Of a stretch of DNA of 28,172 bases, positions 2,784 through 23,059 are shown piece by piece; within the stretch, counting starts at the first letter, position 1; the number at the start of each line of letters is the position of its first letter. This stretch comes from a virus. The stretch covers positions 1-28,172 of the IMG/VR virus record IMGVR_UViG_3300038629_000407, one strand, 5' to 3'. The notes below the pieces were generated by a model, which made no database searches, had not been told where the DNA came from, and saw only the letters and a list, made by a program, of their open reading frames with translations. The translations under genes and the position numbers were made by a program.

Positions 2784-3007
2784 GACCCCTCCGGTTTCGG
2801 GCTGTCGTACCTTTTGTCCGCACCCAGCGAGTCGAGTCGTTTGTGGATCCGAATGATAGATTTGTAGGTCCGGTCGTGCGCACGGTCATGCTTGTCGAAT
2901 TCCCTTGTGATCCACGCGACAAAGGCCGCCACCAGCGCTCCCCCAAGCACAAGACACGTGGCGACCAGCCAGGCTATCGGAACCATAGAGTTTTCGTCGA
3001 TGTTCAT
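2780..3007 (-). CDS. Small single-span membrane protein of the lysis cassette
   Basis: This encodes 75 residues. The N-terminus is short, residues about 8-32 form one hydrophobic segment, and the rest is a charged, His- and Arg-rich amphipathic helix (EFDKHDRAHDRTYKS) ending in a polar tail. It starts at an ATG that shares ATGA with the endolysin stop, and it shares another ATGA with the next gene. One-span proteins of this shape next to endolysins are often called holin-like or antiholins, but the sequence alone does not decide. Its tight coupling to the endolysin and the two-span protein supports a role in lysis timing. Confidence 0.6.
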   Translation of the reverse strand: MNIDENSMVPIAWLVATCLVLGGALVAAFVAWITREFDKHDRAHDRTYKSIIRIHKRLDSLGADKRYDSPKPEGS

Positions 3008-3348
3008 TTGACGCCGTTGTGCTCGAAGCTGAAATGCACCCCGTCACGCCCCTTGAAATCGCCACCCCAGCACGCGAGCGGGTGCATGGTCTTCCACTTC
3101 TTGCCGAGCTTGGCGTAGATCTCCATATCCCAGCTGACCTTGCCATCGACCACAACAAACAGATCGAGCGCCAGCTTCAGCCGATGGTTCGATTTCTTGA
3201 TGCCTTTGCCGGCAGCCGCGTAGATCTCGGCCTGCTCCTTGGTACGGAACCACTCCGCGCCCATCACGCAGATCCCTTGCGAGCGCGCCCACACAATCAG
3301 CTTCGCGATGTTGAAAGCAAACTCGGCCTGCTTATCGTTGAGTGTCAT
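3004..3348 (-). CDS. M15-family endolysin (L-alanyl-D-glutamate endopeptidase type)
   Basis: The product is predicted to cut peptidoglycan stem peptides during lysis. The 114-residue protein shows the M15/VanY-like zinc site: SNHRLKLALD gives S53, H55 and D62 of the SxHxxxxAxD motif, and DGVHFSFEH gives D102 and H105. W94-GGDFKGRD is also typical of the phage branch. It has no signal peptide or membrane segment, so it needs a holin to reach the periplasm. It is slightly shorter than common M15 phage enzymes (about 130 residues) but looks complete. It starts with an ATGA overlap to the giant virion gene and is followed by small membrane and spanin genes, a normal lysis order. Confidence 0.93.
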   Translation of the reverse strand: MTLNDKQAEFAFNIAKLIVWARSQGICVMGAEWFRTKEQAEIYAAAGKGIKKSNHRLKLALDLFVVVDGKVSWDMEIYAKLGKKWKTMHPLACWGGDFKGRDGVHFSFEHNGVK

Positions 3349-6300
3349 TGGCCACCGCCTCTTGCCGTTCGGTTACTGGTCATGCGCGCGAGCACCTCTC
3401 GTTGCGCTTCTGGCAGTTCCATGATGTCCACCAGGATCTCGGCCGTGATTGGCGCGTCGTCCTCGAGCTGCTCCGCTAAGATCTCCACCGCATCATCGAC
3501 GCCAAAGCTCTCCAAAAGAAAGGTAAGGTCACCCTTCTCGCTGGGTGGCGTAGCACCCGGCCGGAGCTCGTAGCCTTCTTTAAAGAGTTCGTTCTTCTCG
3601 AGATCTATCTCGATCATTTGCCGGCGCTTTTCGTCCGGGTCCATCTTCTCATCCAGATAGATGTCCATCGCGTCGCGGTTGAGATCCTGGACGTTTTCGC
3701 GGAGCTTCTCGAGCTCCTTGGAGATATCGATGTAGGGCTCGTATTCTGCCTCGATGTAATCCGCGCGATCATCCAGGTCTTGCTTTTCAAGGAAGGTCAG
3801 GCTGCCTTTCACCTGCATGGTTTTGCGCAGCAGTTCGTAGAATCCATCCGAGTACATGGTCCGCCGAGCTCGGCCCTCACCACGATAGAACGAGCCGACC
3901 ACTGGGTAATCCTGCATTTCCCAAGCTGGCGGGGCTGGGTGGTCCATGGCGTTGCGCATCATTGCGTCGGCACCCAGCAACGCGTACTGGCCCATGGTCC
4001 CGGTATAGCCGCGGTAAAGGTTCTCCAGGTGCAAGGGTGATGTCAGCTTGCCAAACGATTGCTGCATCCAGGGTGGCGCAGCCTCGGCGATCTCGCGGAA
4101 TGTTGGGCTGCCGTAGTAGCGGTATTGCTCGGCCGGCAGGCGTCTTTCCTCGAACGCGCTCACGATCTCACGCTGGGTAAAGAAGTTCAGGTTGAACATG
4201 GATTCCACGGCCGGCTGTACCAGCTGAGGAATAGGATTCATCGAGAACGTCTCGCCGATCATATGCCAGAGCTGCTTGAGCATGATCTTGTTGGCGTCAG
4301 GCTCCTCAGACAGGGCCCGCTCCATGAACATTTCTGGGAGCGTGTTAAATAGCGCGCCGATCTCGAAAGGTTTCGGCAGCCGGAAGTGCTTGTCGCCAAT
4401 CCACCAGTGGTAGTACGCGGCGCGATCCCAGTACGGGAGCTCTTTGTATCGGTCATCATCCTCAAAGGCCATGTAGAGCGCCATGCCAGCCATCGAGAGC
4501 AACAAGCCTTTGTACGCGAACGCTACGGGGTGCTCTGCAGCACCGCGTTGCAACCGGTGGAAACCCTGGAGCCTGGCGCCCATGAACGGCACCGTCTGGA
4601 TAAGCCACTGAACGACCGGGTAGTCACCGCCCATCGAGAAGTCCATCAGGTCCTTCGCCTCGTAGGCCGCCTGCTTCTTCGACTTGCCTTGCGCGAGAGC
4701 ATGGTTGTACACCCCGATGCGATTCGCGTTCTCCACCGCAGAGCCGAGCGCTTTGTAAGCCTCGAACAATTTGAGCCCGTTATCGAGAACGGAATCGGTA
4801 AACCCTTTGGCGCGCATCGACTTACGGATCGCCCGGCCGGTGGAAGTAGGGTCACCATAGTTGATGTAACCAGAGTCGAACGCGGCGCCGGCACTCATCA
4901 TCGTGCGCAACGATTCATCGCCGGCCAAGGCCTGCTTGAACCCGACAGCAGAGCGCGCCATATGCGCAGGCAGATCTACGGCCGCATGGTAGGCACCCTT
5001 GAGGTGTCCGTACTCCTGTCTGTCCAAAACGTATGAGCTCAACAGGTCTCGCGCGTAGTTGCGAACCATGAACCCCGGATCCAAAGTGATGGTCCCGGTG
5101 AAGAACCGCTTAAAGTTTCGGAACGCCTGGGTGATCTTGCCGAACTGCTCCATGTTGATCGACGTGAGGGCCCGATACAGGAGTTCGTCTGCCGTGTGGT
5201 AGTACTCTCGTTTGCCGTCGCGCATGATCGAGATCGCGCCACCCTCTTTGGCATCCCTGCCACGCTTTCGAGTCGTCGGTGGCTCAAGCGCAGTCATCAT
5301 GCGAACACCCTGCAAGACGTTACCTGGGATCGTGCTCGGGTCGATGCCGGCGTTGGCGAGGATCTTCTTCACCTGGCCCATGGGGATGAGCGCTTGGGAC
5401 ATCGCCATCGGAACCTTGTTGATAATGCCGCTACCTTTCAGCGCATCGACGCTCGAGCGCGCGGCCTGGTTCTTCATCGAGGTGTTAACGATGTTGGTCA
5501 CGTTCGCGAGGATGTTGTCGACGACATTGCCAATGGCGAGTTCACTGCCTTTCAGGTACTTGGTGGGGTCTTTCTGGCCCTCGAGACCTCTGGGGCCGCC
5601 CGACAGTGCACCGGTCATTCGCTCGTCCTGGATCCGGTAGAACGGCACGTAGTCAGCGTGCTCCCAGAACGGCCGCGTCTCTGGGTTGATGATGCCGGCC
5701 TGCTCACCGAAATCGAGAACCTTTTTGTTGAATGCGGCGTACTCTTTTGCCACCTCCTCAAAGTCGGGGTTCTCCTCGACCTGGTCGATCATTGCCTCGA
5801 GCTCGGCCGGCGTGAAGTTTTTCTCGCGGCCATTCTCGATGATCTGCTCGATCATGCCCGCCGGCATTGCGCCAGATGCCATCGACTCGAAGATGGCGTC
5901 GAGGCCACTGATGTTGTTGGTGTGCAACCAGTTGTCGATGCTGCCGCGGTTGTACTCATCCAGGCTCGTGTAACCTTCCATGAGCAAACGCTTCCCGCGC
6001 CGGCCGGCCATGAACATAGACCACTCATTGATGCGATCCCCGATAGGCTTGAGGATGTCGAGCAGACCCTTACCTTCGGTCATGACCATGCCGGCATTTT
6101 CTCCGACGCCCCAGGTCGGGTGCCCGTATTCGAGCACTGCCTTCATAACCGAATCGAGCGAGGTGGAGAACCGCGCTTCGATGTAGGCGTCCATCGAGGC
6201 CTCGGCGTTGACAAGCGCATCCTTCAGCCCGGCGAACTTATCGAACAGACCTGCTTCCCACTCGCGCTTGAAGTTGCCGTAGAACCCAACCCAGCGTTCC

Positions 6301-9300
6301 CAGAAAGTTTCCTTTACTGCAGGGGCGCCGATCTTCTTCGATGCCGATGTCAGGTATGGGTTGTCGTACTCCTCCTCGTCCTCCCGGATGTTGCCGGGCT
6401 TGGGATCGAACACATCACCCAAAATACCGTTCTCGGCCGCAGAGTGCATATCCTTGCCGTAAAAGTGGTCGAGCACCACGGTATTGTTGCCGCCAAATCG
6501 CATCAAAAACGCCGCAGCCTCCGCGCCAGGCAGCAGGCTCTCAGTCTGGGTCTGTATGATGACAGCCGCTACGTTGCCCTGATGGATCGCGCGAAGAAGC
6601 TTGCGCTTACCACCATGCGGTTGCTGGGTGCCCATATCCTTCATTTCAGCTTCAGTCATCGGCAGGTAGCCGATGATGTTGTGACGGGTATCCAGCATCA
6701 CAATGCCGTCGCCCTTCGGGTGCTTCTCACGCAGGTATCGTCTAATCGCCGTCGAGTCGCTCACTTGGACACGGTTCTGATCTGGCACCTTGGTGTAGAT
6801 CCGCTCTGTAACAGGCACCTTCACGCTTTGCCCGGGCGCAGCCCATACGGGGCCTTCCGGGCCCGTGCTCTGGGGCAGCAGCTTGGAGACCGTTCCACCA
6901 ATATATGCGTGAGCAGTTCTGCCGCTGGGAGTAAGGACCAGCATGCCTTCCGGCTGGATCGCGGGCGCCGCCCAGATGTGGTAGTCCTGCATCATCGAGA
7001 TAAGATGTTCGGTCAAGGCCAAATCAGCAGCACTGGGATCCGAAACATCGCTCGGATGATTGTGCGCAAACCACACACTCGCCGCTCCCTCGACGTCCAT
7101 GATGGACCCCACCAGGAAAGACGCGTGCACCGAGGCCGAGTCGTGCATGCCGATGGTGTGGCGAATGATCTGTAGCGGCCGGCCATCTTTGTCGACCACC
7201 AGTGCCAGCATGTTTTCCTGAGCGGCTGACGCGCGCGGCTGCAGCACGGCCACCGCATCTTCGGGCCGGTTCACAAACTCGACTGGGGAGTCGACCGTGG
7301 CCACCTCGACGTTTTCGACCATCTGGTTGAAGACGTTAGCATCCGAGCTGCGGAGCTCCTCAACCTCAATCACCGGCAGGTTGTCCTGGCGGGGTTCGGC
7401 GTTGCGGTACATCACCGTGCCTTGAGTGATTCCGCCCAGCGTGAAGTCTTTGTTGCGGCCTTTGTTTTCGACGAAACCAAACCGCTTGTAGAAGCTGATC
7501 AGCCGGCCCTTCGAGGTAGTGCCGATGCCGTCGTTTTTCTCTGCCGGCATAAGCGTCATGCGCACGTTGTACTCGTCAGCGAACCGCATAAGTTCGTTCA
7601 TGACGAAGGTGCCGGTGCCCGCCTTGCGAGCACCCTGACGAACCACAAGCATATCGAGGCTGAGGTCACCTTGGCTGGTGACCGAAAGTTCTATCGTGGA
7701 AACATTGTCGTTGTCGAGCAAGTCGGCCTGGAGGGTTGCGACGTCCTCACGCAAAAACTCTAAGCCACGACTTTCTGCTCGGCGACGTCTTCCTGCGCGG
7801 CCAGGTCCGGCGGCAGCTCGTCCCTCTCCTCCGGTGTCAGTGGGTCCGCCTTCAGATCCCGGTTCGGCCACGCCCGGGCCAGGTAATTGGTCCTGGTAAC
7901 TGGAATCTGCTGTTCGCGCATACTGTCGATAAGGGGATCTTGCCCACTCGGGATTTGCGATACCGCTTGCTTGTTCACTGATCTGCTCCCGTGCTGCGTC
8001 GGCTTCTATGTTGCCGTCTTTGTAATCTTGCCACACTTTGTGGGCGGCCACACGGTTGCGGTCGGTCTTGAACCCTTCCGTAAACAGCCCTTTGGCAGCC
8101 TCCCAGGTGATCGATTGCAGTTCGCGCGGCTGTAGACCGAGCTCGGTAGCGGCGCGTCGGTACGCCTCAGCGTACGCCCAGTAGGCGCCGTTGAGCCCTG
8201 TGTGAGCATTGTCCCCTATCCCTTTTGAGGATCCGAAGTTGTTGTCGACCTCGGTCGCATCTGACCCCAGTGGCCGGAGCAGGCCGGCAGCTACCGCATG
8301 AGTGTCGACGGTGACATCACCGCGCACGCTGTTCGGTGTAATGATGTTGTTATAGAAGTTCCTGATCTTGTGACCCCAGCCCATCGACTGCGAAATGTTC
8401 TCCACAGTCGGGTCAGCAAGGATCTTCAAGGCCTTGGCCAGGGAGGGGACGGACCCCCACTTGATCGTCGCCAAGAACAGGCGCTCGCCGGCAATGGTTT
8501 CCTGAGACGTGGTGGCGTTCTCTCCGAACTGTCCCTCGGGTGTCAGGGTCCGATAGCTGGCCGGGTTATTGGTCTCATCGAAGATCCGCACCCACATGGC
8601 CTGTTGGACAGGATCCGTGAGCTGCCTGAGACGCGATCTCAGTACCTTTTCCAGGTTCTCCGCATACACAGGGCCGTCGAAAATCTCCGCTCCCTTGCGT
8701 CTCATAGCCGCTGAGGGTCGGGTTTCCTGCTGATTGGTCCAGACATCGACGGCCCGCTCAGCCAGGCTGACGTTGATCTCCCAAGGTGTCTGCGGACTCA
8801 ACGCTGCGATGGCCCCTGCCATGGCTTGCTGGGTCGTGCCGTATCGCTGCGCAAGCTTGGCGCTGACCCGGTTGGCGCCCTCGTACCACTTTCTCGAACG
8901 CTCGCGGATCTCTGCCGGGACCTGGCCGTGCAGCCACAGCAGGTTCGACTTGATCTGCTCGATGATTTCCTCGGCCGTCTCCTCGGTCGAGGCTCCCTTG
9001 GTGATCCTGAAGTTGACGTACTTGGCCATCGTCTCGACCGTACGCCTGAACGCATGCGGCGCGAGCTTAGCCGCCTCGAGACCTACCGTCAGATCCCGCT
9101 CGAGCGCGCCCTCGAGGGGTTTTTTGGCCCACGGATTGCGCGTGCTGACACGACGGCTGCCAGTCGTCCATGGCCGACTCGGCGAGTACTTCTCCCCAGG
9201 CTCCATAACGCGACCCGGAACACCGCCGTCGCCGATCTCTCTCACACCGTAACGATACCCACCGTACTCATTGTCCAGACGGTCCACGCGCCTGCGAGCT

Positions 9301-12300
9301 CGGTTGAGCTGCTTGTATGGACCGCCAACCCGCTCCCCGGTATGTCGGTCGTACACTTCATAGGTCGTTGACTCAAAGCTTTCATCTTCCTCGAGCTCGT
9401 ACTCAACGCCTTCTTCCTCTACGCCCTCGGCCGGCCGTTGACCAGGAACAGTGAAGGCGCGATTACCGAGCCCCCACTCCCAGAGCACCATGGAGTTGAG
9501 CGCATAATTGACCGGATCGTTCGTGTTCTGGCTGCCTTTCCTGATGGCGTTGTACCACTCCCAGACCTTCTCCTTTGAGACGATTCCAGCCTCGACCGCG
9601 TCATTGAAATCCATACGCGAGGGAAACTCGTTCACCACGGCAACGGCCGTGCGCGCAGAGACCAGGCGTTGTCGCAATGTGTCCGCGTCTGCTTTGCCCA
9701 CCCGGATCCCAGATCCCTTGGCAAACTTGCGGAGCTCCGTGAGATTCATATCGCCAACACGAGCACCAACCCGGGCCTCGGTTTCCTCGATGACGGTGTC
9801 GATCCGCTCCGTCGTTGCCGGGCCTTCAGTTGGCACCTCGGTCACCGCAGGTGGAGGCACTGCCGGGAATGTCATGGTGTTACCGGCGTTTTCTCCCCCG
9901 ACCTGCCCCGTAAGTGTCGTCGGGCGCCTGGCATCAGTGCTGAAGCGTATGGCTGGGGCCTCGGATCCTTCGCTGCTGGTGAGTCTGACAGGCATGGGCA
10001 TATCACCCATCCCGCGCTCGGCAAGCACCATCGACCGGTGCCGGCCATCATGGCTGACAACTTGCGCGACGGAGCTGTCCTCGTTGAGCCCGAAGTTGAG
10101 TAACGGGGTGCTGCCCAGCTGCTCGCCAGCATCCAACGTCCCGCGAATCTTCTCGAGCTTCTCATCCATTACCCGCTCAGGGCCTTCGGCTGCGAAGGGC
10201 TCGGCCATGGACAGAAACTCATTCGGCGTCATCTGTACGACAGCCGTACGGGAATTGCCGGCGGCCTCGGCCTCACCCTGCTCTATCGCTGCAGCGGAAA
10301 ACGCATCGGCCGGGGTCTCGGGCTCAATCGGGAGCTCGCCCGACTCGAGCATGGCCTTGAGATCCGCATCATCACGTTCCTGGCGGGCGCCCTGGATGTC
10401 GACCACGGTTGTGTCGTCCGCCGCGAGATCCTTGGCCACCTGGATTGCATCGGCGTCGGTATCGGTTGGCAACAAGGTGGTTTGGGTCTCAACACCCCCA
10501 GGGTCGGTCACGGTTACGTTGCGCCCGCCGTCGTCGTTAGTGCTCTGGGTAGTAACCGCCCAACCTGCTTCGAGGGCCGGCGCATGGTTCGCCATGAAGA
10601 ACGAGTAGGCGAACCCTTCGGGTGTTTGGGAGCGGCGTGCTTTGTCGGCCTCGACGTCACCCCGCAGCTTCGAGATAAGGCTGCCTTCTGTCGCCGCCAC
10701 GTTCGCCTGCGGGAGTTCGGGATTGAAGCTGCCCCACAACTGGGTTTTCTTGGTGTACGGCTCGCCATAGTTGCGCGGATCGAACACGAGCAACGGTTCC
10801 GGCAGACCGGTTTCTTTCTGGATCCGGCCGACCGGGTTCTCCAACACGTGGAAACCGCTGGGGTTCGCCAGTGCGATGATTTCCTCGGTGATCGCTACCA
10901 GCGTCTTCGCATAGTCGAGTGGCGTATCGAAGTACTTAGTAGCCCACAGCCCGTACTTCTCCTCCACCAGGCCGGGCACGTCGTGTTGCTTTTTCCACCA
11001 GCGCGCGCCCGAGCTCGCGAACGAGGTGCACGGTGGAGCGGCCAAGACCCCCACGATCTCAAACCCTTCGTTCCTGATCTCCGTGATTTCCGCGACCGGC
11101 ATGAACGCCACCAGGTCGTCGCCGCTTTTGACGTCGTACTGCACCACCTGATAACCAGCATCGCGCCATGGCTTGGACCAGGCACCGCTCACATCGAACA
11201 GGGATAGGATGACTTTGTTGCTGTTGTCTTCTTCACGACCGATCCGGGCCGCTTCGTCTTTCCAGCCCTGCACGACGGCCGCGGCTTCCTCGGCGGAGAG
11301 ATCCTCGGTGCGGCTGTCGTCGGCCTTGATTTTCTTTTCGGGCACCGGGAAGCGCTCGGCATCCGGCAGCTTGGAGAGTTCGTCTGGGGTTAGCCAGGTT
11401 TCTGGAAATTCGGCTGCAGTCTCGGATCCAGGTTCGCCTTCTTGAGTGCCTTCCCCACGACCAGTGCCTGCATCTTCTCCTGCTTCGTCAGTGGTTGCTT
11501 CTTCGGTTTCGGCATTGATCTTCTCCGCAAGCTCGCCAAACGACTCAGGGTTGTCGAAGTACTCCAGCGCAGCAGATTGTATCTCACTTCTTGGCAAGGA
11601 TTCATAGGTAGACAGCGGGTCACCCTCCGCCAGATCAGCCAGGCGACTGATATCAATATCGGTGATCAGGTCATCCATGAACCGTTGCTCTCGAGCACCC
11701 AGCTTTTCCCCTTCCAGGGCTTTGATAATCGCTCGCTGAGCCGCTCGAGGCGTGAGCTTTCCGCTGCCGACTTCCCGGTTGTCGCTCAAGACGTTCGCCC
11801 ACTCGGGGCCGATGCGCTCGAAGTCCACCCCGGTGCTGTACTGGGGAGTGCCGCGTAGCGACTCGTTCATCTTGTCGATCAGTTCGTTGAGCTCGGCGCC
11901 GGCATAGCCTTCCTCTGCAAGCGCTTCGCGCAGCAAATCGATGTCGTCGAACTCGGCGTTCTTGGCGGGGAAAGCGCGGGAGCGCTTCATTTCCTCCGGG
12001 TCTATTCCTTCAGCTTCAGCAGCTTCACGGCTGAGCCCGCCCAGCTTCCCGATGGCCACCATAAGCTCATCGGCCGTGCGGTCGACGGTCTTCGCGTCCG
12101 GCTGAGCCATCTTCGATAAGGCCTCGGCGCGCACCTCGAGCTCGGTTTCCTGCTCAGGGGAATAGACGGGTGGCTCAGCAGGCTCCGGCCTGGCTTCTGC
12201 TTCCGGCCCAAACCGTTCGGACAATGTCGCCTCAGACGGCTTGAGGCGCCGCAGAGAGGGCGGTGGTTTCCCGTGGGCCGAGCGTAGGCCTTCGCGCTGG

Positions 12301-14261
12301 CGTTGCTCCTTCATCTTCAGCATCGCCACATCGGCCGATTCTGGGTCCAGTCCGAATGCCCAGGTCATGGCGGGCGTTATCGCCAGGGATCCATCAGTGC
12401 TGGCAATGCCAGGCCCAGCCTCGAGGGTTGCTGCTGCCGCTTGCAGCGCGGTCTCGACCTCCTCCTCGGTTTGCCCGGTCACGAAAAACTCGTCGCCGCT
12501 GGTGTGGAACGCAGCATCGCTTTCGGCGCCGATAGCATCGCCGACCTGGCGCAGCAGTTCGTCGCCGACCTCATGGCCGCCCATGTGATCGTTCACGTAC
12601 TTGAGCGAGTCAACGTCGATTGCAGCAATGACTGGGGCGCCCTCCGTCTCGAGCGAATCCTCGAACGCGCGCTTGTTGCCCAGGCCTGTGAGTTCATCGG
12701 TGTAGAGTTCGGTGACGATCTCCGCGTCGGTCATTTCGGTGACGGCTTTCCGGCGGGTCCGGTCTTTGCGTCGCTCGGTGCCGCCGTACGCATCTTCCTT
12801 GGCGGCGTCGACAGCCTGGTCCATTTCTGCTTTGGCACGACGGCCGGCCGGCAAGATCATGATGTCGTTGTCGCCAACACGTTTGGCGTACCCCAGATCT
12901 ACCAGGCGAGTCTGTTGCTCGTCATCGATATAGTTGCCTTCCTGGACCTCGGCAATGTCTTTGGACACGGCCGACATGCTTGCCGCGTTTCCCTTGAAGA
13001 CCTCCTCGACGTTCGTTTCTTTCTTGTCCGAAGGCGGCGGCTTTGGCTTGTACCAGCCCTTCTTACCATTGATCTCAATGAGCATCGCACCTGGTGCGCC
13101 GGGCTCCGCAGGATCGAACAGCGATAAGTTCGGATCCTTCCCCGCCCCTTGCGAGCGGTCAGCGATCTCAGACGGGATGCGTATCGCGGCACCGGCAACC
13201 CCGCCAAGGATGAATGAGTCTCGGATTCGCTGAATCGCTTCTTTCGCGGATATCTCCTCATCGAGGATCCCCACGTCGTAGGCCATCGCCAGCGCTTCGG
13301 TGATCACCTCCTGGGATCCCTCGGCCCCTGCAGCGGAGAGAAAGTTCTTGGCAATCTGTGTCAGCCCGCCACCTTTGCCGCGCTTGAAGATCTTCTCCAG
13401 CGCAAGTGTCTCAGGCAGAAACTCGAACATCGCGTTGAACCCGGCACGCTGGTGGTTCTGCTCTTGCGTGAGTTCCATTTCCCGACCTTCGGCCAGGGCG
13501 GCGCCATACACGTCGGCTGCGATCATGCCGGATCCGACGAGCGGTCGTCTTAAGGCGATGGCCGGTGCCATCCTGGCTACGGTCTCAACTCCCGTAGCAA
13601 CAAAAGCCTCGGTGCTGGACAGCAACCCTTCTTCCGCCTCATGCGGCATGTTCTCTCGAGCTCGCTTGCGGAGCTGGCCTGCGGTCCCAAAGAACGGGGT
13701 AGCCTCGTCGCTACCCATCCGGTCTTCCCACATCTTGGTGCGCTGAACCGGTTTCATGATCGTTTTGAGAACCTGGTCAATCTTGCCAATCTTCGCGGCT
13801 GCCGGGAGGCCGATGTACTTCGACATTTCAGACTGGAAGGCAGCAGCTTGCTGTTCATCCAGGTACTCGAGGGCGGGGTGCTGTACGTGGCCGATTACAT
13901 CGGCTCCGGTCTCTGCCAAGCCAGCTGTGGTTTGTTGCAGCCCAGCCAACGCAGGCTTCGCCACATAGTCTTTCATCCAATTGGCGGAGCTGCCCGGGCT
14001 CCCAGGCTGCTGAGGCGGCGCGTCTAATCCTGGTGGCGGCTCCCCTTCGCCCACACCCAGTGCCGGCGCAGGTTGCTGGCTGATGTCACCCTCGGTTGCT
14101 TCGAGTGCAGCGGCTGGCGAGGAGAGGTCAGAAGCATCCGCCTCGAGTTCCTGGGCGTACCGCTTGAATCGTCGCGCGGCTTCCGCGTCACCAGCAGCAT
14201 GGGCCGCCTCAAACTTACGGTAGGTTTCGCTTAACTCCCGTTGCAGATCTGGCTCTGCCAT
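3345..14261 (-). CDS. Giant polyvalent virion/ejection protein (GGDEF, C5-MTase-like, ParB-like, GNAT, RadC-like, LPD38-like)
   Basis: The 3638-residue product belongs to the polyvalent proteins that tailed phages are thought to eject with their DNA. Segments in order: helical N-terminus (100-390); GGDEF domain (515-640; DELTGLGNKRAF, SGDEF at 588-592); helical polyvalent-type region (700-910); C5-methyltransferase-like domain (1015-1235; D1023, PPC with C1078, ENP 1141-1143); ParB/sulfiredoxin-like domain (1335-1440; GRHRS 1406-1410); SAP-like stretch (1505-1535); domain with GANR and VDTHA motifs (1690-2090), resembling the phage family I know as DUF7178; GNAT (2160-2300); RadC/JAMM-like domain (2335-2450; H2400, H2402, D2413); a second RadC-like tail (2490-2615); and an LPD38-like region to about 3480, with one hydrophobic stretch at 3245-3268. 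Linkers are low in complexity. The gene follows two ejection-type genes and precedes the endolysin. Two small frames are nested in its linkers. Confidence 0.9.
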   Translation of the reverse strand: MAEPDLQRELSETYRKFEAAHAAGDAEAARRFKRYAQELEADASDLSSPAAALEATEGDISQQPAPALGVGEGEPPPGLDAPPQQPGSPGSSANWMKDYVAKPALAGLQQTTAGLAETGADVIGHVQHPALEYLDEQQAAAFQSEMSKYIGLPAAAKIGKIDQVLKTIMKPVQRTKMWEDRMGSDEATPFFGTAGQLRKRARENMPHEAEEGLLSSTEAFVATGVETVARMAPAIALRRPLVGSGMIAADVYGAALAEGREMELTQEQNHQRAGFNAMFEFLPETLALEKIFKRGKGGGLTQIAKNFLSAAGAEGSQEVITEALAMAYDVGILDEEISAKEAIQRIRDSFILGGVAGAAIRIPSEIADRSQGAGKDPNLSLFDPAEPGAPGAMLIEINGKKGWYKPKPPPSDKKETNVEEVFKGNAASMSAVSKDIAEVQEGNYIDDEQQTRLVDLGYAKRVGDNDIMILPAGRRAKAEMDQAVDAAKEDAYGGTERRKDRTRRKAVTEMTDAEIVTELYTDELTGLGNKRAFEDSLETEGAPVIAAIDVDSLKYVNDHMGGHEVGDELLRQVGDAIGAESDAAFHTSGDEFFVTGQTEEEVETALQAAAATLEAGPGIASTDGSLAITPAMTWAFGLDPESADVAMLKMKEQRQREGLRSAHGKPPPSLRRLKPSEATLSERFGPEAEARPEPAEPPVYSPEQETELEVRAEALSKMAQPDAKTVDRTADELMVAIGKLGGLSREAAEAEGIDPEEMKRSRAFPAKNAEFDDIDLLREALAEEGYAGAELNELIDKMNESLRGTPQYSTGVDFERIGPEWANVLSDNREVGSGKLTPRAAQRAIIKALEGEKLGAREQRFMDDLITDIDISRLADLAEGDPLSTYESLPRSEIQSAALEYFDNPESFGELAEKINAETEEATTDEAGEDAGTGRGEGTQEGEPGSETAAEFPETWLTPDELSKLPDAERFPVPEKKIKADDSRTEDLSAEEAAAVVQGWKDEAARIGREEDNSNKVILSLFDVSGAWSKPWRDAGYQVVQYDVKSGDDLVAFMPVAEITEIRNEGFEIVGVLAAPPCTSFASSGARWWKKQHDVPGLVEEKYGLWATKYFDTPLDYAKTLVAITEEIIALANPSGFHVLENPVGRIQKETGLPEPLLVFDPRNYGEPYTKKTQLWGSFNPELPQANVAATEGSLISKLRGDVEADKARRSQTPEGFAYSFFMANHAPALEAGWAVTTQSTNDDGGRNVTVTDPGGVETQTTLLPTDTDADAIQVAKDLAADDTTVVDIQGARQERDDADLKAMLESGELPIEPETPADAFSAAAIEQGEAEAAGNSRTAVVQMTPNEFLSMAEPFAAEGPERVMDEKLEKIRGTLDAGEQLGSTPLLNFGLNEDSSVAQVVSHDGRHRSMVLAERGMGDMPMPVRLTSSEGSEAPAIRFSTDARRPTTLTGQVGGENAGNTMTFPAVPPPAVTEVPTEGPATTERIDTVIEETEARVGARVGDMNLTELRKFAKGSGIRVGKADADTLRQRLVSARTAVAVVNEFPSRMDFNDAVEAGIVSKEKVWEWYNAIRKGSQNTNDPVNYALNSMVLWEWGLGNRAFTVPGQRPAEGVEEEGVEYELEEDESFESTTYEVYDRHTGERVGGPYKQLNRARRRVDRLDNEYGGYRYGVREIGDGGVPGRVMEPGEKYSPSRPWTTGSRRVSTRNPWAKKPLEGALERDLTVGLEAAKLAPHAFRRTVETMAKYVNFRITKGASTEETAEEIIEQIKSNLLWLHGQVPAEIRERSRKWYEGANRVSAKLAQRYGTTQQAMAGAIAALSPQTPWEINVSLAERAVDVWTNQQETRPSAAMRRKGAEIFDGPVYAENLEKVLRSRLRQLTDPVQQAMWVRIFDETNNPASYRTLTPEGQFGENATTSQETIAGERLFLATIKWGSVPSLAKALKILADPTVENISQSMGWGHKIRNFYNNIITPNSVRGDVTVDTHAVAAGLLRPLGSDATEVDNNFGSSKGIGDNAHTGLNGAYWAYAEAYRRAATELGLQPRELQSITWEAAKGLFTEGFKTDRNRVAAHKVWQDYKDGNIEADAAREQISEQASGIANPEWARSPYRQYARTADSSYQDQLPGPGVAEPGSEGGPTDTGGEGRAAAGPGRAGRRRRAESRGLEFLREDVATLQADLLDNDNVSTIELSVTSQGDLSLDMLVVRQGARKAGTGTFVMNELMRFADEYNVRMTLMPAEKNDGIGTTSKGRLISFYKRFGFVENKGRNKDFTLGGITQGTVMYRNAEPRQDNLPVIEVEELRSSDANVFNQMVENVEVATVDSPVEFVNRPEDAVAVLQPRASAAQENMLALVVDKDGRPLQIIRHTIGMHDSASVHASFLVGSIMDVEGAASVWFAHNHPSDVSDPSAADLALTEHLISMMQDYHIWAAPAIQPEGMLVLTPSGRTAHAYIGGTVSKLLPQSTGPEGPVWAAPGQSVKVPVTERIYTKVPDQNRVQVSDSTAIRRYLREKHPKGDGIVMLDTRHNIIGYLPMTEAEMKDMGTQQPHGGKRKLLRAIHQGNVAAVIIQTQTESLLPGAEAAAFLMRFGGNNTVVLDHFYGKDMHSAAENGILGDVFDPKPGNIREDEEEYDNPYLTSASKKIGAPAVKETFWERWVGFYGNFKREWEAGLFDKFAGLKDALVNAEASMDAYIEARFSTSLDSVMKAVLEYGHPTWGVGENAGMVMTEGKGLLDILKPIGDRINEWSMFMAGRRGKRLLMEGYTSLDEYNRGSIDNWLHTNNISGLDAIFESMASGAMPAGMIEQIIENGREKNFTPAELEAMIDQVEENPDFEEVAKEYAAFNKKVLDFGEQAGIINPETRPFWEHADYVPFYRIQDERMTGALSGGPRGLEGQKDPTKYLKGSELAIGNVVDNILANVTNIVNTSMKNQAARSSVDALKGSGIINKVPMAMSQALIPMGQVKKILANAGIDPSTIPGNVLQGVRMMTALEPPTTRKRGRDAKEGGAISIMRDGKREYYHTADELLYRALTSINMEQFGKITQAFRNFKRFFTGTITLDPGFMVRNYARDLLSSYVLDRQEYGHLKGAYHAAVDLPAHMARSAVGFKQALAGDESLRTMMSAGAAFDSGYINYGDPTSTGRAIRKSMRAKGFTDSVLDNGLKLFEAYKALGSAVENANRIGVYNHALAQGKSKKQAAYEAKDLMDFSMGGDYPVVQWLIQTVPFMGARLQGFHRLQRGAAEHPVAFAYKGLLLSMAGMALYMAFEDDDRYKELPYWDRAAYYHWWIGDKHFRLPKPFEIGALFNTLPEMFMERALSEEPDANKIMLKQLWHMIGETFSMNPIPQLVQPAVESMFNLNFFTQREIVSAFEERRLPAEQYRYYGSPTFREIAEAAPPWMQQSFGKLTSPLHLENLYRGYTGTMGQYALLGADAMMRNAMDHPAPPAWEMQDYPVVGSFYRGEGRARRTMYSDGFYELLRKTMQVKGSLTFLEKQDLDDRADYIEAEYEPYIDISKELEKLRENVQDLNRDAMDIYLDEKMDPDEKRRQMIEIDLEKNELFKEGYELRPGATPPSEKGDLTFLLESFGVDDAVEILAEQLEDDAPITAEILVDIMELPEAQREVLARMTSNRTARGGGQ
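7760..7978 (-). CDS. Nested small gene (72 aa, IPVTRxNYL motif) in +1 frame of the giant gene
   Basis: This frame lies wholly inside the giant gene on the same strand, shifted by +1. A GTG start sits 7 nt after GGGAG. The 72 residues read like a genuine phage protein: a short polar N-terminus, SMREQQIPVTRTNYLARAW, then LTPEERDELPPDL and an acidic tail. The IPVTRxNYL...W...ELP pattern recalls small stand-alone proteins common in phages and proteobacteria. Its codons are ordinary for this genome (CTG, GCC, GAC, GAG). The giant protein's frame here is a Gly/Arg/Ala/Pro-rich linker (residues 2095-2168) with several rare-type codons (CGA, AGA, TTA, many GGA). This suggests the small frame is the older one. 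Whether it is still translated is not proven. Confidence 0.55.
   Translation of the reverse strand: MNKQAVSQIPSGQDPLIDSMREQQIPVTRTNYLARAWPNRDLKADPLTPEERDELPPDLAAQEDVAEQKVVA
11390..11515 (-). CDS. Possible nested small basic gene (41 aa) in +1 frame of the giant gene
   Basis: A 41-residue frame starts at an ATG 7 nt after GGAG, in the same +1 phase as the other nested frame. The product is lysine-rich and plausibly folded in its middle (KQEKMQALVVGKALKKANL), ending in a proline-containing tail. The giant frame here is a Glu/Gly/Thr linker (residues 916-958) in which ten of eleven Glu codons are GAA, as expected if it overprints an AAG-rich frame. The frame is short, and a +1 shadow of a GAA-rich linker would also give many Lys residues, so this call is weaker than the 72-residue one. 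No family is recognised. Confidence 0.35.
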   Translation of the reverse strand: MPKPKKQPLTKQEKMQALVVGKALKKANLDPRLQPNFQKPG

Positions 14262-21991: not shown

Positions 21992-23059
21992 TCATGTTTG
22001 CGGTGCGCCCAGAGGGCCAAGTAGCCGCCCTTCCGATAGCAGTGTGGCTTCATTTTTGGCGCCCACGAAATTGAACTCTGCAGCGGGTTGCTGCAAGAGT
22101 GCGAGCAGATTACCGCCACCTGACCCTGTCGAGCTGGCGTCTGAGGTATGCGTGACCGTCACGCTCGAGGCACCCGGAATTGTCTGGATCTCGTACGAGG
22201 ACAGCAACGTGATGCCGTTAAACGTCGGGTAGAGCTGCGTCCCAGAAGTAGGCAGAAGCACCAGCCGCTCACCGATTGATGCGCCATGTGGCGCGGGGAA
22301 ATTGACGGTCAGGGTCGGTGAGACGTTGACCGTGTCTATCGAATCCGTTGCAAGCGAAATGTCGGTGCCGGCCTGGATGAGCGATAGAGCGTTGCCGGCT
22401 TCACCTAACGGACCGCCGAAGATGCTGCCGACCTGACCAGCCTCTCCTCGAGCGCCCCAACTTGCGGCGTCACCGCCGTCAGCATTGAGAAGGCCTCCCG
22501 TTCCGGGCCCTCCCTCTCCACCGGCGGTACCTGGGGTTCCGCCTGGGACACCAAAGCCGCCCGCACCGCCAGACGTGACTGCATGACCTTGACCACCACC
22601 GCCGCCGCCACCACCGCCGCCACCACCGGTCAAGCCGCCGCCGCCACCACCTCCGCCGCCGCCACCCCAAATGAAACCATCGTCGGTATCGAGATTGAGC
22701 GTGACGTTGGTCGGACCCATGGCCAGTGCTGCAAACCCAGCAATCCCCGGGAGACCTGGAGTAAAGACGTTCAAGCCAATGAAGGAGTCGAAGAACGATG
22801 TCCCTCCGTTACCACCAGCTCCGCCGCGGCCAAGAAGTCTCGCGCCGTTGAGCAACGTGACCCTGACAATAGAGCCGACCGGCCACGCACCCAGCGTGAC
22901 GGTTTTCCCGTCTGTGGCGTCAAAAGCAACCGACACATCGGACGGAATCCCAGGCGACCCAAGGTCGACGTAGAGGTCCAAATCGGTTTGCACCGTCGTG
23001 TAGATCTTGTCGAAATTGAGTCGGTCCGACAACAGAGCCAAAGGCATGCTCCAAGGCAT
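21992..23059 (-). CDS. Glycine-rich tail fibre-associated protein, 355 aa
   Basis: The 355-residue product shares TGATG with the upstream gene; a second ATG at 23047 is possible but its GGAG lies too close. Residues 20-130 are beta-rich and include LYVDLGSPGIPSDVSVAFDA and VTLGAWPVGSIVRVTLLNGA. The middle (about 131-200) is extremely glycine-rich: two runs of about a dozen Gly split by a Leu-Thr, then GGAGGFGVPGG-like repeats. Such segments form polyglycine-II bundles in some phage adhesins. The C-terminal 140 residues are again beta-rich and mixed. A host-contacting tip or fibre-core role is likely, but the family is not identified. Confidence 0.65.
   Translation of the reverse strand: MPWSMPLALLSDRLNFDKIYTTVQTDLDLYVDLGSPGIPSDVSVAFDATDGKTVTLGAWPVGSIVRVTLLNGARLLGRGGAGGNGGTSFFDSFIGLNVFTPGLPGIAGFAALAMGPTNVTLNLDTDDGFIWGGGGGGGGGGGLTGGGGGGGGGGGGQGHAVTSGGAGGFGVPGGTPGTAGGEGGPGTGGLLNADGGDAASWGARGEAGQVGSIFGGPLGEAGNALSLIQAGTDISLATDSIDTVNVSPTLTVNFPAPHGASIGERLVLLPTSGTQLYPTFNGITLLSSYEIQTIPGASSVTVTHTSDASSTGSGGGNLLALLQQPAAEFNFVGAKNEATLLSEGRLLGPLGAPQT
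22592..22668. repeat. GGN/NCC triplet tract encoding polyglycine
   Basis: A 77-bp tract of CCN triplets on the + strand (CCACCACCGCCGCCG-type, mixed CCA and CCG with one CCT) encodes about 26 residues of nearly pure Gly on the - strand (residues 131-156), interrupted by one Leu-Thr. The mixed third base shows it is kept at protein level and is not a perfect microsatellite, although it could still slip and change length. Confidence 0.85.

Follow-up and report, generated by a model that had tools for sequence, protein, structure and literature searches.

A 72-codon open reading frame that lies out of frame within a giant phage gene raises the question of whether it is a gene in its own right and, if so, which of the two frames is the older. 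We addressed this question in the window, by which we mean the whole stretch of DNA analysed, a complete virus record of 28,172 bases. The giant gene (Table 1) is located downstream of a gene for a DNA-ejection-like protein, with one gene in between. It encodes a protein of the polyvalent type that is probably associated with the virion, as judged from its set of domains and from the DNA-ejection-like protein gene nearby upstream. When the whole giant protein was searched against Pfam, its DUF7178 domain (PF23802) scored 93.9 bits, for a gathering cut-off of 27. A short endolysin-like gene (3004-3348) shares 4 nt with the end of the giant gene; its resemblance covers only a part of the matched endolysin and ferredoxin families. 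In the structural region, the gene at 21992-23059 encodes a protein with long glycine runs.

Table 1. Positions in the window of the giant gene, its domains and the nested frame.
Feature	Position	Strand	Remarks
Giant polyvalent-type gene	3345..14261	minus	3638 aa; holds the nested gene
GGDEF-type domain	12447-12704		N-terminal half of giant phage protein
Methyltransferase-like segment	10563-11237		N-terminal half of giant phage protein
DUF7178 domain	8028..9020	minus	Residues about 1748-2078; directly before the small gene, in relatives too
Shine-Dalgarno-like GGGAG of nested gene	7986..7990	minus	7 nt before GTG; direct sequence reading
Nested small gene (predicted)	7760..7978	minus	72 codons plus stop; GTG start; +1 frame of giant gene
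Codons of conserved motif I-P-V-T-R-x-N-Y-L	7880..7906	minus	
GNAT-like acetyltransferase segment	7467..7709	minus	Pfam matches below cut-off, PHROG matches stronger; after the very probably overprinted linker
RadC/JAB domain	6981..7271	minus	
LPD38 domain	3897..4457	minus	

Composition of the nested frame

The original prediction had placed a 72-residue ORF at 7760-7978. This ORF exists; its strand has to be added, as the coordinates are those of the plus strand and the ORF is read on the minus strand, from a GTG at 7978-7976 to a TAG at 7762-7760. Its product of 72 aa is VNKQAVSQIPSGQDPLIDSMREQQIPVTRTNYLARAWPNRDLKADPLTPEERDELPPDLAAQEDVAEQKVVA. The GGGAG described 7 nt upstream of the GTG was seen at 7990-7986 by direct reading of the window. 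In the giant protein, the same stretch appears as a low-complexity Gly/Arg/Ala linker between the DUF7178 domain and the GNAT-like segment. The giant-frame codons of this linker had been called unusual, and the counts bear this out: its 73 codons include four CGA, two AGA, two TTA and seven GGA, while these codons occur at 8.8, 4.1, 2.5 and 9.3 per 1000, respectively, in the whole giant gene.

In its +1 frame, the giant gene has many open stretches that reach 70 codons. We counted 15 of them, so that the length of the nested ORF is within chance, as would suit an open frame without function. The composition of the stretch gave a different picture. GC content at giant codon positions 1/2/3 is 0.66/0.46/0.71 upstream and 0.60/0.40/0.75 downstream of the nested stretch, and 0.74/0.71/0.40 inside it. 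Read in the nested frame, the stretch gives 0.71/0.40/0.74; the codon-position pattern thus flips to the nested frame. The codon log-odds per codon over the stretch are +0.23 in the nested frame and -0.29 in the giant frame, the mean of the giant frame elsewhere being +0.34. Elsewhere in the giant gene, the +1 and +2 windows all stay below the score of the nested frame, and the giant frame has its lowest score precisely over the nested stretch. Within the window, the nested ORF is beyond chance by its composition, not by its length. Codon-position GC and codon usage would likewise be flipped by a pair of compensating frameshifts in the giant gene, the nested frame then being a remnant of its former local frame. 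The relatives described below bear on both alternatives.

A family of small proteins

The nested product had been judged to read like a conserved small protein, and homologues with IPVTRxNYL in other phages had been named as its support. A scan of IMG/VR revealed such a family. DNA encoding IPVTRxNYL was found in 35 stretches, of which 7 were unrelated and 28 were small ORFs with likeness beyond the motif, both in the preceding residues and in a later acidic stretch ending in LPE-x-(L/F) or similar. A broader pattern detected 81 stretches (about 80 relatives), nearly all of them just after a DUF7178 domain. These first members were found with a pattern taken from the query; the sample based on DUF7178, presented in the next section, is free of that bias. 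Against a profile of 45 relatives from which the window was excluded, the nested ORF scored 54.3 bits, as compared with a best score of 37.9 bits when the motif was kept fixed and the flanks were shuffled 20,000 times. With the motif masked, the nested ORF scored 11.6 and the best shuffle 10.4. The nested ORF was also the single match of the profile among the 717 six-frame ORFs of the window. It has P-V-T-R-x-N-Y and the later proline, with a T where most relatives have an E before N-Y; some DUF7178-linked homologues of the later sample vary even at these positions. A chance open frame is contradicted by the existence of these homologues and by a family match far above the shuffles.

The family did not match any entry in Pfam, NCBIfam (queried with the window protein only), PADLOC or PDB. 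Two sub-threshold PHROG matches, phrog_21323 (E 0.019) and phrog_31685 (E 0.0042), were obtained with one member each of 13 scanned; with 46 members, phrog_31685 alone was returned, for one of the 46 and again below threshold. A tblastn search of annotated phages with the nested protein and three other members gave no significant match, and the family is therefore essentially absent from cultured phage records. Reading by eye in all frames of three deposited phages with DUF7178 (OP947163, OL791268 and MZ892992) revealed no nested ORF, and a 71-aa gene after the portal gene in CRP-738 was checked and is not a family member. Plasmids searched with the nested protein yielded chance matches only. 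When the query protein itself, or the DUF7178 segment of the window, was looked up directly in IMG/VR, no match was obtained, these sequences being too diverged. In bacterial genomes of two phyla, the family was detected in 1 of 299 and 1 of 195 genomes sampled, which in both cases was the starting genome. One proteobacterial MAG contig (L213, G001:C183) carries two stand-alone genes of the family, at 6247-6523 and 8460-8754, about 2.2 kb apart and with no DUF7178 nearby.

Place and frame beside DUF7178

In viral relatives with enough flanking DNA, the small ORF lies 97 to 218 nt past the point where the DUF7178 domain ends, and on its strand. L016 is an outlier at 581 nt; the other exceptions to this adjacency are the bacterial contig L066 and three loci truncated at contig ends, L034, L095 and L103. 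All 34 DUF7178 segments used matched PF23802. For an independent sample, 80 loci were picked by DUF7178 alone, regardless of the small ORF. It was present in 72 of them, in frame +1 in all 72 cases. Seven of the remaining loci were scored as lacking it and one was cut by a contig end; among those scored as lacking, L051 is the same contig as L016, in which the small gene is present past a frame change. Such a fixed position and frame, together with the evidence above, leave a vanishingly small probability to a chance frame without function. Counted over 124 distinct DUF7178 sequences, the small gene accompanies 116 and is missing from 8. With both alternative frames allowed, the relative frame was +1 in 115 of the 116 loci, L016 being the one in the other frame.

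The position at which the DUF7178 frame ends varies: in 37 of the 116 loci it falls before or inside the small ORF and in 41 slightly past it (mostly by 38 nt); in the other 38, one of which is the window, the frame continues farther or runs out of the contig. In some relatives, then, the upstream gene stops early and the small gene overlaps its end, and in others the small gene is fully nested. The group of 41, to which L100, L124 and L093 belong, shows full nesting to be common in DUF7178 genes of ordinary size too. In the closely similar contigs L016 and L023 the DUF7178 frame differs after the domain, passing its usual end in L016, either through a sequencing error or through a real change of frame. 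In relatives, this sequence forms an ORF of its own, with start and stop, next to a DUF7178 gene ending earlier. The arrangement is seen repeatedly over a very diverged tree under continuing selection. Both observations speak against a former frame of the giant gene left between two compensating frameshifts, an explanation with a very small probability in our view.

Start signals of the small gene

The near-constant +1 frame, and a small ORF beginning near the end of the DUF7178 domain, are also what would be expected if the DUF7178 protein ended, at its C-terminus, in the small frame, entered by programmed +1 frameshifting. An overlap inherited by common descent, however, would fix the frame equally well. 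Many members of the family have a strong AGGAGG at the proper spacing of 5-6 nt before an ATG. In L008, L017 and L067, an in-frame stop lies directly 5' of this ATG, so that a shift would be possible only within the small ORF. Moreover, the small ORF is intact in L016 despite its different relative frame, and stand-alone copies of the family exist. The nested gene of the window appears to have its own Shine-Dalgarno sequence and start (GGGAG, 7 nt, GTG), weaker than those of many relatives, and in the sister record L145 the corresponding place has a TTG preceded at 7 nt by GGGAG. Given the AGGAGG-ATG starts, the upstream in-frame stops and the start in L145, it is unlikely that the small protein originates as a +1 frameshift product, and we leave this mechanism only a slim chance. 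In infected cells, the small protein would be translated from the internal start.

Selection on the two frames

Substitutions were analysed by codon position in nested relatives. Constraint was found to fall on the nested frame, and not on the giant frame only, which is the pattern that, together with a lack of homologues, the original prediction had named as speaking against it. In two groups of nested relatives, substitutions upstream of the small ORF occur mainly at the third giant codon position. Over the C-terminal part of this ORF, changes at nested positions 1/2/3 number 58/51/118 in one group and 592/622/1634 in the other. In the group whose downstream frame is long, substitutions go back to giant position 3 after the small ORF. 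The N-terminal part of the small ORF is without clear position flip in group B. Since pairs within a group share history, nine separate pairs across the tree were also used. These gave 95/96/167 changes at the nested-frame positions and, at the end of DUF7178, 97/66/279 at the giant-frame positions. Such a signature of selection by codon position argues against a chance open frame. Over the same bases, identity of the nested-frame protein was at least that of the giant-frame protein in eight of the nine pairs, the exception being L072/L105, which are nearly identical.

The giant frame is also kept open. When the small ORF of the window was resampled with synonymous codons, the giant frame remained open in 4.4% of the trials; the corresponding values were 0 of 2000 for L008 and below 1% for several others, while in L172 and L140 chance alone would often leave it open. 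In L145, the nearest relative, there is a giant gene that matches that of the window on both flanks (best pieces at 40-48% identity), and the nested gene is present there. Compared between the two, the small frame shows 43% identity over 46 positions, and these bases read in the giant frame show 30%. As the collections offer no close relative of the window, the estimates of selection come from more distant ones and not from the window's own lineage. Because the giant frame is kept open as well, both reading frames are, on this comparative evidence, under selection.

Origin of the overlap

The proposal that the nested frame is the older and was overprinted fits the codon statistics as well as the variety of places at which the giant frame ends relative to a single conserved small gene. 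We consider that the nested ORF is very probably a real, independently started gene, older than the giant-gene linker that runs over it. In ancestors, the DUF7178 gene would have ended near or inside the small gene. In the lineage of the window and in several others, the DUF7178 frame may then have grown through the small gene and joined downstream domains; by this extension the small gene would have become wholly nested and the giant protein would have gained its Gly/Arg/Ala linker. Ribosomes on a single mRNA would translate frame 0 into the giant protein and, initiating at the internal start, would also produce the small one. On a tree of 85 DUF7178 sequences, long nesting requires ten changes by one count and eight by another, and well-supported branches force at least three. 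The deep branches of this tree are weakly supported, so that we infer the direction of each change. Extension of the DUF7178 gene over the small one, with fusion to domains farther downstream, thus appears to have happened at least three times, and eight to ten events are more likely.

Possible role of the small protein

Several relatives have their DUF7178 genes beside terminase and portal genes, and the DUF7178 protein may therefore be packaged or ejected. Linkage and genomic context suggest that the small protein is most likely a translationally coupled partner of DUF7178; made at the 3' end of DUF7178, it may act as its chaperone, inhibitor or subunit. We propose this partnership, with the DUF7178 domain of a probably virion-associated protein, as a tentative assignment. 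The small gene could quite conceivably be real and yet unrelated to the function of DUF7178, linked to it only because the overlap is hard to break, since overlap alone would keep the linkage. The two stand-alone copies on one proteobacterial MAG contig, without DUF7178, and the eight DUF7178 loci without the small gene count against an obligate partnership and agree with such an unrelated function. On the other side, neither pattern scan of viral contigs showed a gene of the small family to lie away from DUF7178, the exceptions being cut by contig ends. Within the partner reading, a more specific and rather doubtful version is that DUF7178 is a virion-borne enzyme and the small protein its dedicated inhibitor or chaperone, resembling an immunity protein, with the small gene kept by translation coupling. 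If so, the small gene would have been retained even after the enzyme became a domain of a giant protein written across it.

The fold of DUF7178 is predicted with confidence (pLDDT 90.5) and is mostly helical. In PDB, nothing matched the model at E <= 0.001, and the 50 matches listed included no glycosylase. The invariant residues K223 and D244-T-H246 of DUF7178 are reminiscent of HhH-GPD glycosylases, in which the catalytic Lys lies in the hairpin and an Asp ahead of the helix that follows. A HhH-GPD DNA glycosylase is supported neither by the fold search nor by Pfam, in which no HhH-GPD match was found for DUF7178, and is retained as a lead only. The model of the small protein is of modest confidence (pLDDT 72.9, pTM 0.40) and gave no fold match. 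A likely partner would provide a handle on DUF7178, a domain of unknown function without fold match among solved structures.

Comparison with known systems

The small IPVTRxNYL family is defined here, and the family, its fixed place and the direction of the overprinting appear to be new. In a literature search that covered few subscription journals, no paper named DUF7178 or the IPVTRxNYL motif. A conserved family present at most sampled loci of a common phage domain had been missed previously, probably because gene callers pass over an additional frame within a long gene.

The Rz/Rz1 lysis pairs are a known example of a larger phage gene that contains a small one in another frame, each having its own start. 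The nested gene of the window is alike in being a small out-of-frame phage gene inside a larger one, with each separately started. In Rz/Rz1, however, both genes serve lysis and the outer gene is small, whereas the outer gene of the window is a giant with many domains, very probably extended over an older small gene.

The giant gene combines DUF7178 with RadC and LPD38, which are domains of the polyvalent class (Iyer et al. 2017, PMC5512222). The small gene is located at the end of DUF7178; no account of an additional gene in another frame was found for this domain, and overlap is not mentioned in that paper.

With overprinted genes as reviewed (PMC8227390), the window has in common that two frames occupy the same bases and are both selected. 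In the usual case, a new ORF arises inside an old gene (PMC8227390). Here, by contrast, the small gene would be the old one and the linker of the long frame the new one. The locus would thus be a clear example from nature of overprinting in the rarer direction, in which a long multi-domain gene has repeatedly been written over an older small gene, both remaining functional.
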